NCBI RefSeq assembly: GCF_030373545.1
Contig: NZ_JAUDCO010000001.1
Span: 124,001 to 188,000, forward strand
Length of the DNA: 64,000 bases
Source of the DNA: Collinsella tanakaei
GTDB taxonomy: Bacteria > Actinomycetota > Coriobacteriia > Coriobacteriales > Coriobacteriaceae
Reading direction: 5' to 3'
This document shows, one piece after another, positions 4,467 to 63,417 of the stretch. Each line of letters starts with the position of its first letter. The first letter of the stretch is position 1. Made by a program: the position numbers and the translations under genes. The notes beneath the pieces were generated by a model. That model was not told where the DNA came from. It saw only the letters and a program-made list of their open reading frames with translations, and did not search any database.

Positions 4467-4606
4467 TCGCGCCTCTTGCGGCGACGCATTCGAGTCCTGC
4501 AGCCTGCGGGCCACTCCAAAAGAGGCGGTCCTGTGGACATGTCCGCAGCGACTCCCTTGTGGCCGCGCCTCCTTATGGGCACACGGGCGCTTACGCTCGC
4601 GAAAAT

Positions 4607-4853
4607 GGTCACGAGCGAACGATTACTGACGATCTCGACTGCTCGGAAGCTTATGCACAGCGGCACAGTTCCGCCAGATGGGCACCCCGCCTCGCGGTGA
4701 AGCTGCAAAATGCACCCCGAGACACGTCAAACAGCGAATTCTGAGCCATCCCCGCGAACGACGGGCGGACGCCGACGTCCTCCAAGCGCGGCCGAGAGCC
4801 CTTTGGAGCAAATGTCTGCTCGAGCGACGATCAGTAATCGTTCGCTCGTGACC
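4607..4853. repeat. Inverted pair of a 23-bp sequence in the corA-amidohydrolase gap
   Basis: Positions 4607-4629 (GGTCACGAGCGAACGATTAC and three more bases) are repeated as an exact reverse complement at 4831-4853, enclosing about 200 bp without a credible gene. The 4467-5161 gap otherwise holds only the terminator hairpin at 5066-5103. Function unknown; a small non-autonomous element or a long-range stem are both possible. Confidence 0.75.
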
Positions 4854-5061
4854 ACCCGTCCGGAAATGAACGGATGACGCACGGCCAGCACGCGCAAAGG
4901 CTGCATAAAGCGCGTCTATTCGCCACATAGTCTGCATACCGGCTCGAGGCGGAGCACGATGGCCGTCCGCCCGGCACTCCATTGGCCCCGAAGGCTCCTC
5001 GCGCAGCCGTCCGACCCGCAGCTCGCGGCCCGCTCGCATTTGTCGAAAGCAGCCCCTCGGC

Positions 5062-24104: not shown

Positions 24105-25091
24105 ATGCCAGCACAGGACCACAAATTGACCCAGCAGATGTTCAAGACGCTGCGCCTGTATTCGGGCTCATGCAACCGACCGCTCGCGCAGAAGATCGCA
24201 GACATCCTGGATGTCGAGCTCTCGGGTCTCGCTCTCGAGAAGTTTGCGAACGGCGAGATCTACGCTCGCTTTGACGAGTCGGTCCGCGGCGCCGACGTCT
24301 TCTTGGTTCAGTCCATCGCCGGACCCAACGTCAACGACATGCTCATGGAGCTGCTCGTGGCCACCGATGCCGCCAAGCGCGCCTCCGCCCGCACCATCAC
24401 CGCGGTCATCACGCACTACGCCTACGCGCGCCAGGACCGCAAGGCCGCACCGCGCGAGCCCATCACCGCACGCCTCGTCGCCAACCTGCTCGAGCGCGCG
24501 GGCGTCGACCGCATCATCACCCTTGACCTGCACCAGGGCCAGATTCAGGGCTTCTTCGACATCCCGGTGAACCATCTGTCCGCCCTCCCGCTGTTCGGCG
24601 ACTACTACAACGCCAAGGGCTTCGACACCGAGAAGCTCGTCGTCGTGTCCCCCGACGTCGGCCGCGCAAAGGCCGCCAAGAAGCTTTCCGACATGCTCGG
24701 CTGCGACCTTGCCATCGCTCACAAGGGCCGTCCGCGTCACAACGCCGCCGAGGTCATGGGCATCATTGGCAACATCGAGGGCAAGACCTGCATCATCAAC
24801 GACGACATGATCGACACCGCGGGCACCCTGTGCGCCAACGTGCGCGAGCTCAAGAAGCTCGGCGCCGGCGACATCTATGTCTGCGCCACGCACGGCATCT
24901 TCTCCGGCCCGGCCATCGAGCGCCTGAACGAGGCGCCGATCGTCGAGTGCGTCGTCTCCGACTCCATCCCCGTCGAGGTCGGCGGCAAGATCAAGACCAT
25001 CACCGTCGCCGATGAGTTCGCCGACGCCATCGAGGCCGTCTACGTTGAGCAGTCCGTTTCCAAGCTCGTGGGCGGCGACTTCGCGCTGTAG
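24105..25091 (+). CDS. prs: Ribose-phosphate pyrophosphokinase
   Basis: A 328-residue PRPP synthase, supplying PRPP for nucleotides, histidine and NAD. It has FANGEI, the YARQDRK loop with catalytic basic residues, THGIFSGPA and the PRPP-binding DDMIDTAGT in place of the common DDxxxTGGT form. Length is normal for class I enzymes. AAGGAG lies upstream of the ATG. A strong terminator follows at 25123-25159, ending the glmU-prs unit. Confidence 0.97.
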   Translation: MPAQDHKLTQQMFKTLRLYSGSCNRPLAQKIADILDVELSGLALEKFANGEIYARFDESVRGADVFLVQSIAGPNVNDMLMELLVATDAAKRASARTITAVITHYAYARQDRKAAPREPITARLVANLLERAGVDRIITLDLHQGQIQGFFDIPVNHLSALPLFGDYYNAKGFDTEKLVVVSPDVGRAKAAKKLSDMLGCDLAIAHKGRPRHNAAEVMGIIGNIEGKTCIINDDMIDTAGTLCANVRELKKLGAGDIYVCATHGIFSGPAIERLNEAPIVECVVSDSIPVEVGGKIKTITVADEFADAIEAVYVEQSVSKLVGGDFAL

Positions 25092-25159: not shown

Positions 25160-25281
25160 GCTGCGGGCGCGCACGAGTTGCAGCATGCGCGCCGCTGTCC
25201 TTGCTCGAACGCTCAGATGGGGCGCACAGGCTCCCGTCCAGACGCCTCCGAGCGCGCCGTCACGTATCCCCGTACCCATCT

Positions 25282-25475
25282 TGGACAATTTGTTCAGATA
25301 TGAAGGTTGCAGGGGGCTTACTCAAGAGATAGTCGTTTATAACGCAATACATCAGTTTATCAGTCAACAGCAGCGCGGCGGTCGCTTCTGGCGGCAACGC
25401 CCCGATACGGCAAGAACAGCTGAATCCTAGGGCGCCCGGCGGCTCCGAGACCTTCATATCTGAACAAATTGTCCA
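25282..25475. repeat. Inverted pair of a 26-bp dispersed repeat (family A)
   Basis: The 26-bp sequence beginning TGGACAATTTGTTCAG and ending ATATGAAGGT (25282-25307) returns as an exact reverse complement at 25450-25475, enclosing 142 bp without a gene. The same 26 bp, exact, again as an inverted pair, occurs at 52332-52546 with a largely different interior. The repeat is AT-rich in an otherwise GC-rich genome. It occupies the prs-pth gap beyond the terminator. Confidence 0.85.
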
Positions 25476-25562
25476 CCTTAAGGTGAAGCGCCCTCAAAAT
25501 TGACAATCCGGCGCACCCTCGTCACCATGTTGGACGTCAAAACGCACGCGAAAGGAGACCGC

Positions 25563-26192
25563 ATGGCAGCGGCTCAGCCCAAGAAGATCCGCATGGTCGC
25601 CGGCCTGGGCAACCCCGGCGACGAATACGCGCGCACAAGGCACAACGCCGGCTTCTGCGCCGTCGACGCGCTGGCGCGCCAGGCAAACGTCACGTATTGG
25701 AAAAACCAGTCGGGTGCCGAGGTGGCAAGCATCCAGGTCAACGATGCGGACGCCGAGGGCGGCAAACGCGAGGTCCTGCTCGTCAAGCCGCAGTCCTATA
25801 TGAACACCAGCGGCGGTCCTATCTCCAAGCTGTGCGCCGCGCATAAGATTTCCCCGGAAGAGCTGCTCGTCATCCACGACGAGCTCGACATCCCCGCAGG
25901 CGACGTGCGCGTCAAGGTCGGCGGTGGACACGCCGGCCACAACGGCCTTCGCTCCATCATCGACAAACTCGGAAGCCGCGATTTCAGCCGTATCCGCGTC
26001 GGAATCGGCGATCCCCCGGGACGCATGGCCGTAGCCGACTTCGTGCTCAAGCAGCTGCGGGCCCGCGAGGCGGAGGAATTCGACGACACGGCCTTCCGCG
26101 CCGCCGAGGCAGCTGCGCTTGCCCTCACCCGCGGCGTCATCTTTGCCCGCGATCACGTGAACGGCAGCGCCGCCAGCAACGGCAAGCACTAA
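25563..26192 (+). CDS. pth: Peptidyl-tRNA hydrolase
   Basis: A 209-residue enzyme that releases peptides from prematurely dropped peptidyl-tRNAs. Family motifs are GLGNPGDEYARTRHNAGF with the catalytic His, KPQSYMNTSG, IHDELDIPAGDVRVK and GGGHAGHNGLRSI, followed by RIRVGIG. Length is standard. The ATG at 25563 follows AAAGGAGACC; an in-frame ATG at 25500 is less well placed. The stem-loop at 26220-26263 follows the gene. Confidence 0.96.
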   Translation: MAAAQPKKIRMVAGLGNPGDEYARTRHNAGFCAVDALARQANVTYWKNQSGAEVASIQVNDADAEGGKREVLLVKPQSYMNTSGGPISKLCAAHKISPEELLVIHDELDIPAGDVRVKVGGGHAGHNGLRSIIDKLGSRDFSRIRVGIGDPPGRMAVADFVLKQLRAREAEEFDDTAFRAAEAAALALTRGVIFARDHVNGSAASNGKH

Positions 26193-44403: not shown

Positions 44404-44509
44404 CGGGTGCCGGTGCGTGATTTCACCCTAGGGATTTTGTTACACCGGGCAGCCCTTGGGCTGCCCGGTGTAACAAAATCCCTAGGGTGAAATCACGCAC
44501 CGGCACCCG
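44404..44509. repeat. 106-bp perfect palindrome (52-bp arms, 2-nt loop)
   Basis: Bases 44404-44455 are the exact reverse complement of 44458-44509, separated by TT. The arms include CCCTAGGG and run from CGGGTGCCGG to GGGCAGCCC. No T run follows on either side. It starts two bases beyond the stop of the AbrB-type gene. Stem length far exceeds an ordinary terminator. Confidence 0.95.
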
Positions 44510-51950: not shown

Positions 51951-52191
51951 GATGGATTCCTTTACGGTCGGCGGGCATGTGTCCGCGCATGGACATGGAG
52001 CGGGATTGCGGGTCGCTCGGCGGGCGAGCGCTCTGCAGGCCCAGCTAGAACATGTCGAATCTGAGGTACACGCGCGAATCCTTTCTCTCGGCCATCTATC
52101 ATACCCGGCTGGCGCGCGAGGGCAAGCGGCGGCGGGCTCTGGGCGCCGCATACCATCTCTAGCTGCGCAAAATGTTCACAGCGGCAAGTTA

Positions 52192-52256
52192 GCGACAACT
52201 TGGTGGCAGGTGCAATCTTGTCGCCGACGAGAAGATGCTCGGTTCAATCTTGTCGC
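52192..52256 (+). repeat. Family B 33-nt hairpin repeat plus an extra TTGTCGC unit
   Basis: Positions 52192-52224 start GCGACAACTT and end TTGTCGC, able to pair as a stem. A second TTGTCGC follows at 52250-52256 after a 25-nt spacer. The same two-part arrangement recurs at 52613-52677. No coding sequence is seen in the 51951-52750 gap, which holds four separate repeat units. Confidence 0.7.
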
Positions 52257-52331
52257 CACGCCCGTTCACGAGCAGAAGCGGCGCGCGCCCCTTGCTTTGG
52301 AAGTGCTTCCTACGGCACCGCAACCCAAATC

Positions 52332-52546
52332 TGGACAATTTGTTCAGATATGAAGGTTTGGGAGGCCGAAAACGGACCGCAACCGTACCGCAGCATGCTT
52401 CAAGAAATGAAACCCGATAACTGTACATTTACTAAACGACATGTACGCATATTCTTATGATGCGCACTCACTGCCACTATCCGAGGACGGGCCGGATTCC
52501 CCTATATTCCAGGTCCGTAGACCTTCATATCTGAACAAATTGTCCA
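52332..52546. repeat. Inverted pair of the 26-bp family A repeat (second locus)
   Basis: The 26 bp at 52332-52357 is identical to 25282-25307 and is exactly reverse-complemented at 52521-52546. The 163-bp interior differs from the first locus apart from short similarity around GTCGTTTA on the opposite strand. Confidence 0.85.
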
Positions 52547-52612
52547 GTTTCGAAGCGAACAGTGGGGAAACGCAGCGAATCTAGCCTTGCTGACGAGCGA
52601 CAAGAGGGAGCC

Positions 52613-52677
52613 GCGACAACTTGGCGGCAGGTGCAATCTTGTCGCCGACGAGAAAGCGCCGGGTTCAACCTTGTCGC
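52613..52677 (+). repeat. Family B 33-nt hairpin repeat plus an extra TTGTCGC unit (second copy)
   Basis: Positions 52613-52645 match 52192-52224 almost base for base. A further TTGTCGC lies at 52671-52677, just before the hairpin at 52682-52711. Confidence 0.7.
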
Positions 52678-52678
52678 G

Positions 52679-52711
52679 AAAGCGGTCCGCTTCCAAACGG
52701 GAGCGGACCGC
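52679..52711 (-). terminator. Probable terminator of the second amino-acid ABC operon
   Basis: A perfect 10-bp stem (52682-52691 with 52702-52711) followed by TTT on the minus strand. It lies directly beyond the family B element that abuts the ATPase stop codon. Confidence 0.6.
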
Positions 52712-52717
52712 CTCAGA

Positions 52718-52750
52718 GCGACAAGCTTGTACCTGGCGCCAAGTTGTCGG
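52718..52750 (-). repeat. 33-nt hairpin repeat (family B) directly after the ATPase stop codon
   Basis: On the minus strand it begins immediately after TAG with CCGACAACTTGGCGCC and ends CAAGCTTGTCGC. GCGACAA/TTGTCGC-type pairing plus CTTG/CAAG gives an 11-bp stem with one bulge. The position relative to the stop codon is the same as at oadA (28997-29029). Confidence 0.75.
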
Positions 52751-60927: not shown

Positions 60928-60990
60928 CAGGGGCGACGCGCGGAGCGGCCGCGACCGACGCGCTTGCCCCTCATCCAAAATCGAAGCCCC

Positions 60991-61117
60991 CGTTTACGGT
61001 TCGGCTTTAACGGGGTTCGCCGTATAGCGCGAAAAGGCGCAATATCGTTACCTGCAGTTTTGCCGGATTGTGAGGCTCGCCTACTCAGACCCCTTCCACA
61101 AAACCGAACCGTAAACG
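60991..61117 (-). repeat. 127-nt structured element, copy 1
   Basis: The ends CGTTTACGGTTCGG and CCGAACCGTAAACG are perfectly complementary, and CCCC/GGGG flanks extend the pairing outward. Read on the minus strand, GAGTAG is at element positions 32-37 and CTGCAGG at 61-67. Length and motif spacing match copies 2 and 3, while the stem sequence differs. Confidence 0.85.
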
Positions 61118-61148
61118 GGGGCATGCCCCCAGCGGAGGCGCCGGGCAG

Positions 61149-61258: not shown

Positions 61259-61268
61259 GCAATACCCC

Positions 61269-61395
61269 CGTTTAGGGGACGGTTTTTATAGGGGACGTCG
61301 CGTAGACGGCCTTCCGGCGCCATTAAACCCGCAGGTAGACGTGATGCCCAAAATCGGTCTACTCGGGAGGCGCGCGCAAATCCGTCCCCTAAACG
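61269..61395 (-). repeat. 127-nt structured element, copy 2
   Basis: The ends CGTTTAGGGGACGG and CCGTCCCCTAAACG are perfectly complementary. On the minus strand GAGTAG is at positions 32-37 and CTGCGGG at 62-68. It lies upstream of the gene at 61518. Confidence 0.85.
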
Positions 61396-61517
61396 GGGTT
61401 TTCCTCCCCTCGCCTCCGCAACCAGAAGCGAAAGCGCGCCGCTTCGTCAAACGCCTCGCCTGGCGATTCACTACAATGGGGGCGTTGGAAACCCTGCCAG
61501 TCGAAAGGGTCCGAATA

Positions 61518-62150: not shown

Positions 62151-62221
62151 TTCCCGGCAGATCCGACAACGCCGAACGAATCCCGCTCACGCCCGCTACC
62201 TACCTGCGATTGGAACCTGAC

Positions 62222-63019
62222 ATGACACGTTTTTGCACCTCGTGCGGAGCTCCCGTAGACGACCAGACAGCGTTTTGCACCCGCTGCGGCGCGCAACTCG
62301 GCAGCCAGCCGACCGCGGCCGGCGAGCAGGGCAACGCGACCGCTGGCGCCGAGCAGATTACCGCCGAGCCTCAATCGCCGACGACGGCGCCCATGCCGAG
62401 CCCCGCGCCCGCCGCAAGCAGCGATGCGCCCGGACCCCATCGCAGGACCGTGCCCGTCTACGCCCTCGTCGTCATGATGGCATCCGTCGTCGCGGTATGC
62501 GGCGTCGTCCTTGCGGTACTGGCGCTCCACCCCTTGGGCGCCAATCAGGCCACCCAGCAGGAAGCGACCGAGATCCGCGTCATCGAGCCCGAAGCCAAAG
62601 ATGAGGCCGACGACGATATCGAGATCGTGGAAAAGCAGGTCGAACCGGCAGAGGAGCCCGCAGAACCCGCGCCCGCCGAGCAAAGCGAGGCCCCGGTGCA
62701 GCAGGAAGAGCCGCAAGCACAGCAGCCCTCCGCTCCCAACAACTATTACGTATGCCCCGATTCGGCCACGCACGTGTACAGCGACAACGAGCTCTACGCT
62801 ATGTCAGCCGACGAGCTCGAGCTGGCGCGCAACGAGATCTACGCCCGCTACGGACGCGGGTTCAGCACTGACTACCTGCAGGCATACTTTGATTCCCAAG
62901 CGTGGTACACGCGCAAGTACAGCCCGGAGGAGTTTGACGCCATGGCCAGCCCGCTCAACGCCACCGAGCAGCAAAACGTCGACAACATGCTCCGCGTGGA
63001 AAAGGACCTGCGCAACTAG
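62222..63019 (+). CDS. Zinc-ribbon membrane protein with C-terminal YARHG domain
   Basis: A 265-residue protein. A zinc ribbon (Cys5, Cys8, Cys19, Cys22) is followed by a Pro/Ala linker, one membrane helix (about 78-100), an acidic Glu/Pro segment (about 115-175) and a YARHG domain (LELARNEIYARYGRGF, then FDSQAWYTRKYSPEEFD). YARHG domains are extracellular and thought to act at the peptidoglycan surface. It shares its ribbon-helix-exterior layout with the protein at 58428. The ATG at 62222 is used; a TTG at 62210 is possible. Confidence 0.87.
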   Translation: MTRFCTSCGAPVDDQTAFCTRCGAQLGSQPTAAGEQGNATAGAEQITAEPQSPTTAPMPSPAPAASSDAPGPHRRTVPVYALVVMMASVVAVCGVVLAVLALHPLGANQATQQEATEIRVIEPEAKDEADDDIEIVEKQVEPAEEPAEPAPAEQSEAPVQQEEPQAQQPSAPNNYYVCPDSATHVYSDNELYAMSADELELARNEIYARYGRGFSTDYLQAYFDSQAWYTRKYSPEEFDAMASPLNATEQQNVDNMLRVEKDLRN

Positions 63020-63144
63020 CGGGCTGCGCACCAAACAAAACCAGCACACCGCTGCACGCGAGTCCTCGAAGCGCTTTGCGGCGTGCTCACGCGTCCACAC
63101 GACCCCGTTTCGGCGCCACATCTGAGCCGCCGGGACACTACCCC

Positions 63145-63271
63145 CGTTTAGAAGACGGTTTTGCGGCGGCCTGCCAAGTAGCGCTAAAACCGCCAAGGCT
63201 CCCACCTGCGGTTTCTATGCAGCACAAGCTCCTTATACGCGCGGTGCGCCGCCAAAACCGTCTTCTAAACG
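63145..63271 (+). repeat. 127-nt structured element, copy 3
   Basis: The ends pair over 18 bp (CGTTTAGAAGACGGTTTT with AAAACCGTCTTCTAAACG). AAGTAG is at positions 32-37 and CTGCGGT at 62-68. It fills much of the 63020-63417 gap; no gene is seen there. Confidence 0.85.
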
Positions 63272-63417
63272 CATGTTTTGGTTTCCCGGTGCCAAACTGC
63301 AGCTTGATCATCGATTGAAAGCGCCGCGGCACATGGCCCACCGCCTCGGCAACGCGACGCACCTCGCCGTTCCCGGCAAGCCGCAACACTCCGCCCGGAC
63401 CTGAACGATTATTTCAT

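Follow-up and report, generated by a model that had tools for sequence, protein, structure and literature searches.

The window, the 64,000-nucleotide stretch of Collinsella tanakaei DNA analysed here, comes from the genome that we call G000 and carries two inward-facing pairs of the 26-bp sequence TGGACAATTTGTTCAGATATGAAGGT (the type A repeat). Pair 1 is located between two forward-strand genes, which we take to be prs (ribose-phosphate pyrophosphokinase, a name given from the protein sequence) and pth (peptidyl-tRNA hydrolase), and pair 2 lies further along the window. The features at the two pairs, some of them compared with the Collinsella genomes G016 and G022, are as follows.

24105..25091, forward strand: open reading frame (presumed prs), left neighbour of pair 1; the same gene lies left of the G022 pairs
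25202..25281, no strand: left outer flank of pair 1; 10.5-bp A/T phasing in the type A flank set, where phasing locked to the repeat is a result for the set (24 loci, n=48) and not for this flank alone
25282..25307, forward strand: left arm of pair 1 (type A), exact copy
25308..25449, no strand: interior of pair 1; its identity to that of the second G022 pth-locus pair (L047:4574) is 93%
25450..25475, reverse strand: right arm of pair 1 (type A), exact copy; outer length of the pair 194 bp
25476..25555, no strand: right outer flank of pair 1; same 10.5-bp phasing in the type A flank set
25563..26192, forward strand: right neighbour of pair 1 (presumed pth); 16 genomes of the genus have a nuclease-like gene near it
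52332..52357, forward strand: left arm of pair 2 (type A), exact copy
52358..52520, no strand: interior of pair 2, 98% identical to G022 (L052) and 55% to G016 (L039)
52521..52546, reverse strand: right arm of pair 2 (type A), exact copy; outer length of the pair 215 bp

The four copies are exact and face inward, as the earlier note had stated, with start-to-start distances of 168 and 189 bp. The two outer lengths differ by 21 bp, that is, by two helical turns, and the G016 ortholog of pair 2 (L039) is 194 bp long. Another repeat, ACAACTTGG...TGCAATCTTGTCG, is found on both sides of pair 2 (window 52190-52260 and 52610-52749), and one part of it forms an inverted pair with an outer length of 136. 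The window also contains a 47-bp perfect inverted repeat with a 12-bp loop (44404-44509) and, on the minus strand, a Corio-PBP RNA (Rfam RF02945; 55818-55891).

A search of the whole of G000 retrieved 25 type A half-sites at up to three mismatches and none with the reversed pattern at the same cut-off, and a chance origin of the copies is excluded. The half-sites form 13 inward-facing pairs, one of which has its partner arm at five mismatches. At up to three mismatches the repeat was detected in 3 of 43 genomes of the genus: besides the 13 pairs of G000, G016 and G022 hold 15 each (complete pairs among the stretches fetched, plus one contig-end half-site in each), giving 43 in total. The scan of our collection for type A returned 32 Collinsella stretches together with one lone half-site in a Pyrinomonadaceae MAG, and none was found in viral contigs. 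No lone half-site away from contig ends was found in the three genomes at up to three mismatches; one additional half-site, at four mismatches, adjoins a G022 pair. At L046 (G022), an extra half-site lies ~115 bp outside the pair, near a whole number of helical turns.

According to a rough automatic ORF reading, in which some doubtful frames were picked, the pairs are intergenic, save for two marginal short overlapping frames, and the neighbouring frames were co-directional in 30 of 41 cases, convergent in 7 and divergent in 4. The neighbours identified by eye include what we take from sequence to be a glutamate synthase, a PII-like protein, and an amino-acid ABC transporter; a nitrogen-regulator regulon was considered and rejected, the remaining neighbours being too mixed. 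As a check on clustering at the origin or terminus, dnaA was located in G000 and G016. The spread is uneven in G016, where 8 of the 15 pairs lie inside ~124 kb of contig C10 (109-233 kb).

Outer lengths of the 43 pairs are 173 (one pair), 183 (two), 193 or 194 (23), 203 (one), and 213-215 bp (16), and so cluster at steps of 10.5 bp, one turn of DNA. For 24 loci, with one pair taken per ortholog group, the vector strength at 10.5 bp is R=0.92 (p~1e-9), with the one-sided relations L026/L032 and L028/L056 left unmerged and with paralogous copies not fully independent in length. Some orthologous loci show shifts of one or two turns (183 vs 194 bp, and 215 vs 194 or 193 bp). With the repeat as the anchor of the alignment, A/T-rich positions give way to G/C-rich ones and back every 10.5 bp through flank, repeat, and interior, and the phased A/T extends from ~75 bp outside each repeat to ~70 bp inside it. 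This phase is common to the 48 outer flanks of the 24 loci (R=0.74, p~4e-12) and is gone at 110-200 bp from the repeat (R=0.11). Because the flanks of different type A loci are mostly unrelated beyond ~40 bp, the shared phasing is not simply copied sequence. The simplest reading of this pattern would be a smoothly wrapped stretch of roughly 350 bp.

The repeats are conserved in place. Twelve of the 13 G000 pairs share at least one flank with a pair of another species, and nine share both flanks with one pair. In 26 orthologous comparisons, some of which share one flank only, identity is 97.7% in the arm core, 67% in the interior, 72 and 75% in the adjacent 80 bp, and 85 and 87% in the distal sequence. 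The two arms change independently (11 identical co-changes vs 10.4 by permutation; two identical co-deviations among 28 deviations in the arm core). This in-place conservation, together with independent change, makes the repeats look kept as candidate binding sites, not as a stem. Interiors had been described as mostly different; this is too simple, since for 37 of the 43 in the three genomes another member of the set is related (z>6 vs shuffles), in many cases at another locus, with 53-77% identity. The pairs have multiplied in some genomes and may be slowly mobile. The orientation of the interior relative to the flanks agrees in 20 of 22 orthologous comparisons. At L033 (G016, pth locus), the interior is opposite to the flanks relative to the G000 and G022 pth-side interiors (60-62% identity, z 6.5-6.7), a weak indication of inversion or of replacement by the copy in the neighbouring pair.

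The prs-pth locus points to a candidate partner gene. The order in G022 is prs, pair, a 401-codon gene of the nuclease-like family, pair, and pth, and in G000 a single pair lies there. The G000 pair resembles the first G022 pair in its left flank (98.5% identity) and the second in its right flank (98.7%) and interior (the 93% given above). This split between two G022 pairs indicates that the gene was lost by recombination between pairs, or the reverse, and loss is favoured because 16 genomes of the genus carry the gene near pth. The type A cognate gene beside pth was probably lost in G000. The pth-locus proteins show 46-50% identity between Collinsella groups. The repeat flanking the gene in 11 of these 16 genomes, TGGACAGTTAGTTCAGATACGTA or a TTTGTA variant, is a relative of type A, and the TGGACAGTTAGTTCAGATACGTA pattern is matched at up to three mismatches in 20 of 43 genus genomes, including the three type A genomes. 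In the prs-pth gaps of G013 and G056, a search for pairs whose arms have at least 11 exact bases found none.

Both type A pairs in the window are gene-less, and a profile search of the window for the family gave no match. Three family genes were found in G000 (contigs 12, 20, and 21), and these carry other repeats, so no cognate gene was found for its 13 type A pairs. Such near-perfect orphan pairs fit the explanation given below only if the gene was lost recently or another protein uses them as well.

Other repeats form pairs of the same design. In G054 (assembly contamination 6%), the type B repeat (core AAAATGTGYGGGGTTTA, unrelated to type A) forms 15 pairs, with half-sites spaced 105-107 bp apart in 14 and 128 bp, ~21 bp longer, in one; this core was found in 1 of 43 genus genomes at up to one mismatch. 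The outer flanks of the G054 pairs are also phased (R=0.63, n=30; control R=0.18), and a distant homolog of the family gene lies between two of these pairs. At L127 and L128 (G054), an extra half-site lies 64-65 bp outside the pair, near whole helical turns. A third repeat, GGATAATYGCAYY, has 23 half-sites in G055, with nine clean pairs at 109-110 bp in eight and 113 bp in one, which is only roughly in phase, and two pairs bracket a family gene. Thus G022, G054, and G055 each have a gene bracketed by two pairs in addition to dispersed gene-less pairs. For pairs of other families, 50 in all, the outer and inner A/T phases are locked to each other (R=0.54, n=100).

The window itself contains further pairs of this kind.

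4606..4854, no strand: type E pair (GGTCACGAGCGAACGATTACTG), an inward-facing inverted-repeat pair
60988..61120, no strand: type F pair (CCCCGTTTA...), outer length 133 bp
61266..61398, no strand: type F pair, outer length 133 bp; by eye, the inner blocks resemble G054 type B
63142..63274, no strand: type F pair, outer length 133 bp; tip of the right arm degenerate

In G016 (L200), a family gene has a pair of type E half-sites on each side, and the spacings of 192 and 201 (G016) and 225 (window) keep the phase only roughly. The inner blocks of type F, GTAGAC and CCTGCGGTT, resemble the G054 elements by eye. A gene for a zinc-ribbon/YARHG protein (62210-63019) lies between the second and third type F pairs.

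The association of pairs with the gene extends across the family. An inverted pair was found near the gene at 62 of 80 homolog loci of the order (5' in 37, 3' in 46, both in 21), the inverted-repeat score threshold and the distance windows having been chosen after the first loci were inspected. When 103 loci are clustered at 70% protein identity, 54 of the resulting 74 clusters have a pair beside the gene in at least one member, and the inverted-repeat scan found no pair in the other 20. As controls, random pseudo-genes in the window had a pair in 5.8% of cases (13.8% if the elements themselves are counted), and shuffled flanks gave one pair in 60 segments.

Repeats on the two sides of one gene match each other. 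Among 22 two-sided loci (score of at least 14 on both sides; ten belong to one orthologous Collinsella group, and L140/L169 are duplicates), 21 score above all 306 cross-gene comparisons, the exception being L179. In 19 the spacings on the two sides differ by no more than 2 bp, and in three entries, which come from two genes, one of them L179, by 10-11 bp. The interiors of the two pairs are clearly related in four loci, L138 and L187 in inverted and L184 and L186 in direct orientation, and elsewhere the repeats alone clearly match. The linkage of repeat and gene could result from autoregulation alone, with the gene-less pairs otherwise used.

The family proteins consist of two domains, most being ~320-400 aa long, and the N-terminal domain has no recognised fold. 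The order of Collinsella includes common gut bacteria. At E<=1e-5, the family was found in 10 of 149 genomes drawn from the phylum, all ten from this order, and a sample of 59 genomes of the order contained it in 43. A single genome gave as many as 20 matches, where one gene can give two; G095 has 20, which lie at no fewer than 11 distinct places among the matches listed. The one plasmid record with a relative is a 0.9 Mb replicon of C. aerofaciens, and no relative was confirmed in viral contigs by a pattern-based scan. Pfam gave DUF559 only, below the cut-off (E 0.005-0.26), in five of seven members and nothing in two; it listed no HUH family for these seven, nor an AbiEi domain, under HMMER filters that drop most weak matches. 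PHROGs gave nothing under E=0.1 for four members, and NCBIfam and PADLOC gave nothing for one protein each. None of these libraries thus offered a function for the members scanned, and the family is uncharacterised. Structure prediction from three sequences reached a mean pLDDT of 36.6.

Of the proteins with a solved structure, the closest in sequence is 3r3p ("mobile intron protein"), a weak match (E=0.087) that we take to be the EDxHD homing endonuclease I-Bth0305I. Five positions are nearly invariant among the 74 clusters: E236 (74/74), D287 (73/74), E298 (73/74), H304 (73/74), and D313 (71/74). In our reading, they would constitute an E-D-x-H-D catalytic motif, and the C-terminal half weakly resembles the Vsr/EDxHD nucleases in sequence. 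Such conservation argues for a working nuclease, as predicted from sequence.

Two explanations had been offered in the earlier note, namely miniature inverted-repeat elements and paired binding sites for one protein. The second is favoured by the helical spacing, the independent arms, the in-place conservation, and the gene-specific pairs. We consider it probable that the type A pair is a wrapped, looped candidate site of the nuclease-like family, with a life like that of REPIN/RAYT and an unrelated enzyme. The strongest inference from the sequences is that each family protein recognises and folds its own paired site. One protein unit, probably a dimer, would sit on each arm, and the bound arms would meet through a smooth wrap of ~350 bp that takes in the interior, the arms, and ~75 bp of outer flank at either end. 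If the DNA is wrapped in one such curve, the arms must hold their helical phase and A/T must recur every 10.5 bp. A pair placed just upstream and/or downstream of the gene fits probable autoregulation of that gene. Gene-less pairs between host genes may be retained as functional sites, and their conservation fits further regulatory or structural roles. Cutting, occasional copying of pairs, and recombination between the "pair" and "pair-gene-pair" states may also take place; the conserved motif and the existence of both states fit such copying.

A wider claim can be made only tentatively, and our confidence in it falls slightly short of even: throughout the order, these proteins would form a system with private sites in a nucleosome-like wrap, self-control, and slow seeding of site copies, a counterpart of REPIN/RAYT with an unrelated enzyme and a new architecture of the DNA. 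With moderate confidence, we regard the system as categorically new in kind, the functional analogy to REPIN/RAYT being close. No description of these elements was found among the papers listed in a thin search of the open-access literature, and the results suggest an undescribed kind of protein-plus-site system. Since the repeats give each protein a predicted DNA target, its function is directly testable.

Homing of site and gene together is a rather doubtful alternative, in which the nuclease would cut gene-less pairs, a pair-gene-pair allele would be copied in, and autoregulation would be secondary. It draws on the strongly conserved motif positions, on the gene bracketed by intact pairs, and on the prs-pth locus, where G000 has a pair in place of the pair-gene-pair of G022 and combines the left flank of the first with the interior and right flank of the second. 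However, occupied alleles retain two intact sites, and the pth-locus gene has stayed at one place over the deep divergence reflected in the protein identities given above. Homing is compatible with the wrapped-site explanation and does not exclude it.

The other proposal of the earlier note would make the repeats terminal inverted repeats of MITE-like non-autonomous transposons, moved by a past or present transposase, with the length phasing arising from synapsis of short elements. Dispersed intergenic positions, conserved ends, related interiors at different loci, and a copy number that differs between clades all suit such elements, but we judge this origin unlikely, and the proposal does not hold in the form in which it was made. 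No target-site duplication was found in any of the 43 pairs at n=4, 5, 8, or 9, and there was no excess at n=2 or 3 under three boundary offsets, although decay could hide old ones. All copies found in the three genomes at up to three mismatches are short pairs or are cut by contig ends, so that no long element with type A ends is among them. Moreover, all but one of the 13 G000 pairs have a flank in common with a pair of another species, the ends are far better conserved than the interiors, and the phased A/T continues beyond the ends into mostly unrelated flanks. A plain MITE is rejected on the lack of target-site duplications and of an autonomous element in these searches and on the in-place conservation.

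It is a little harder still to believe that the pairs are host architectural or supercoiling sites (for gyrase, a nucleoid protein, or BIME-like elements) that have no partner of their own and that the nuclease-like genes merely borrow as operators. A/T phasing at 10.5 bp is reminiscent of the gyrase motif of E. coli as described in excerpts of PMC6379681, and the pairs lie mostly between co-directional (30/41) or convergent (7/41) frames in the rough ORF reading. On the other hand, the repeat changes completely between species and between paralogs of one genome, a turnover unlike that of a conserved housekeeping enzyme's site, and where a gene has a pair on either side the two have matching repeats.

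Invertible promoters, in which a recombinase would flip the segment between the repeats, are very unlikely: inverted repeats of ~26 bp do surround 140-190 bp segments upstream of some genes, and both discordant comparisons of the 22, weak as they are, come from L033, but the other 20 agree in orientation, L033 is also explained by a copy from the neighbouring pair (the pairs of the G022 locus are themselves related in inverted orientation), and the mixed neighbours show no promoter bias in orientation. Hairpins acting in RNA as processing or termination elements, with the arms pairing in the transcript, are scarcely credible and are rejected, for although the arms are perfectly or nearly complementary and many pairs lie downstream of genes, the arms do not co-vary (11 identical changes vs 10.4 expected), neither the phasing outside the arms nor lengths that change by one B-DNA turn would be expected of an RNA element, and no Rfam match occurs at the two type A pairs of the window.

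Compared with known systems, the pairs are like MITEs in being short dispersed elements with inverted ends, and differ in that no target-site duplication was found and in their conservation in place and helical length quanta. The E. coli gyrase motif covers 130 bp with flanks of 10.75-bp periodicity, according to excerpts of PMC6379681, and this long A/T-G/C phasing of about one helical turn makes it the nearest described bacterial signal that we found. The motif is not gene-specific, and no conserved 26-bp arms are described for it in those excerpts. In relation to gyrase sites and BIMEs, the phased A/T signature of a wrap is present here, whereas independence of a lineage-specific partner is not. 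If the wrap is real, bacteria would possess a nucleosome-like DNA fold that is coded in the sequence and has a specific protein, not gyrase, at its centre.

AbiEi, according to excerpts of PMC7319586, has 23-bp inverted repeats near its gene, bends DNA, and is autoregulated. Its repeats are 3 bp apart (13 bp in Rv2827c) vs 80-190 here, the pairs described here are also found downstream of the gene and far away from it, and Pfam listed no AbiEi domain in the seven members scanned; an AbiE-like reading fits worse than the wrapped site. EDxHD/Vsr-like homing endonucleases (I-Bth0305I, 3r3p) share, in our reading, the conserved C-terminal E, D, H, and D, and one of them gives a weak profile match. 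The DNA target of I-Bth0305I is long, nearly 60 bp, according to excerpts of PMC3943268. In contrast, the family described here is chromosomal, with no relative confirmed in viral contigs by the pattern-based scan, and some of its genes have an intact copy of the candidate site, ~200 bp or more in length, to either side.

The closest functional likeness is to REPIN/RAYT. Type A pairs are dispersed intergenic inverted doublets with conserved ends and a variable spacer, as REPINs are. In both systems, the cognate gene carries its own repeats beside it, and repeat and protein diverge together, as described for RAYTs in excerpts of PMC3116915 and PMC8049555. RAYTs are single-copy and vertically inherited, according to the same excerpts, and the pth-locus gene of 16 Collinsella genomes likewise appears to be vertically kept. 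The partner here differs in resembling Vsr/EDxHD nucleases and not an HUH Y1 tyrosine transposase. The arms vary independently, without compensatory changes that would preserve a hairpin; helical phasing and phased flanks are features of the present pairs; and these number 13-15 per genome, vs 69-235 REPINs in E. coli according to excerpts of PMC8049555. On this comparison, the nuclease-like family and its pairs would provide an independent second case for the long co-persistence of a DNA-processing enzyme and its short target elements.
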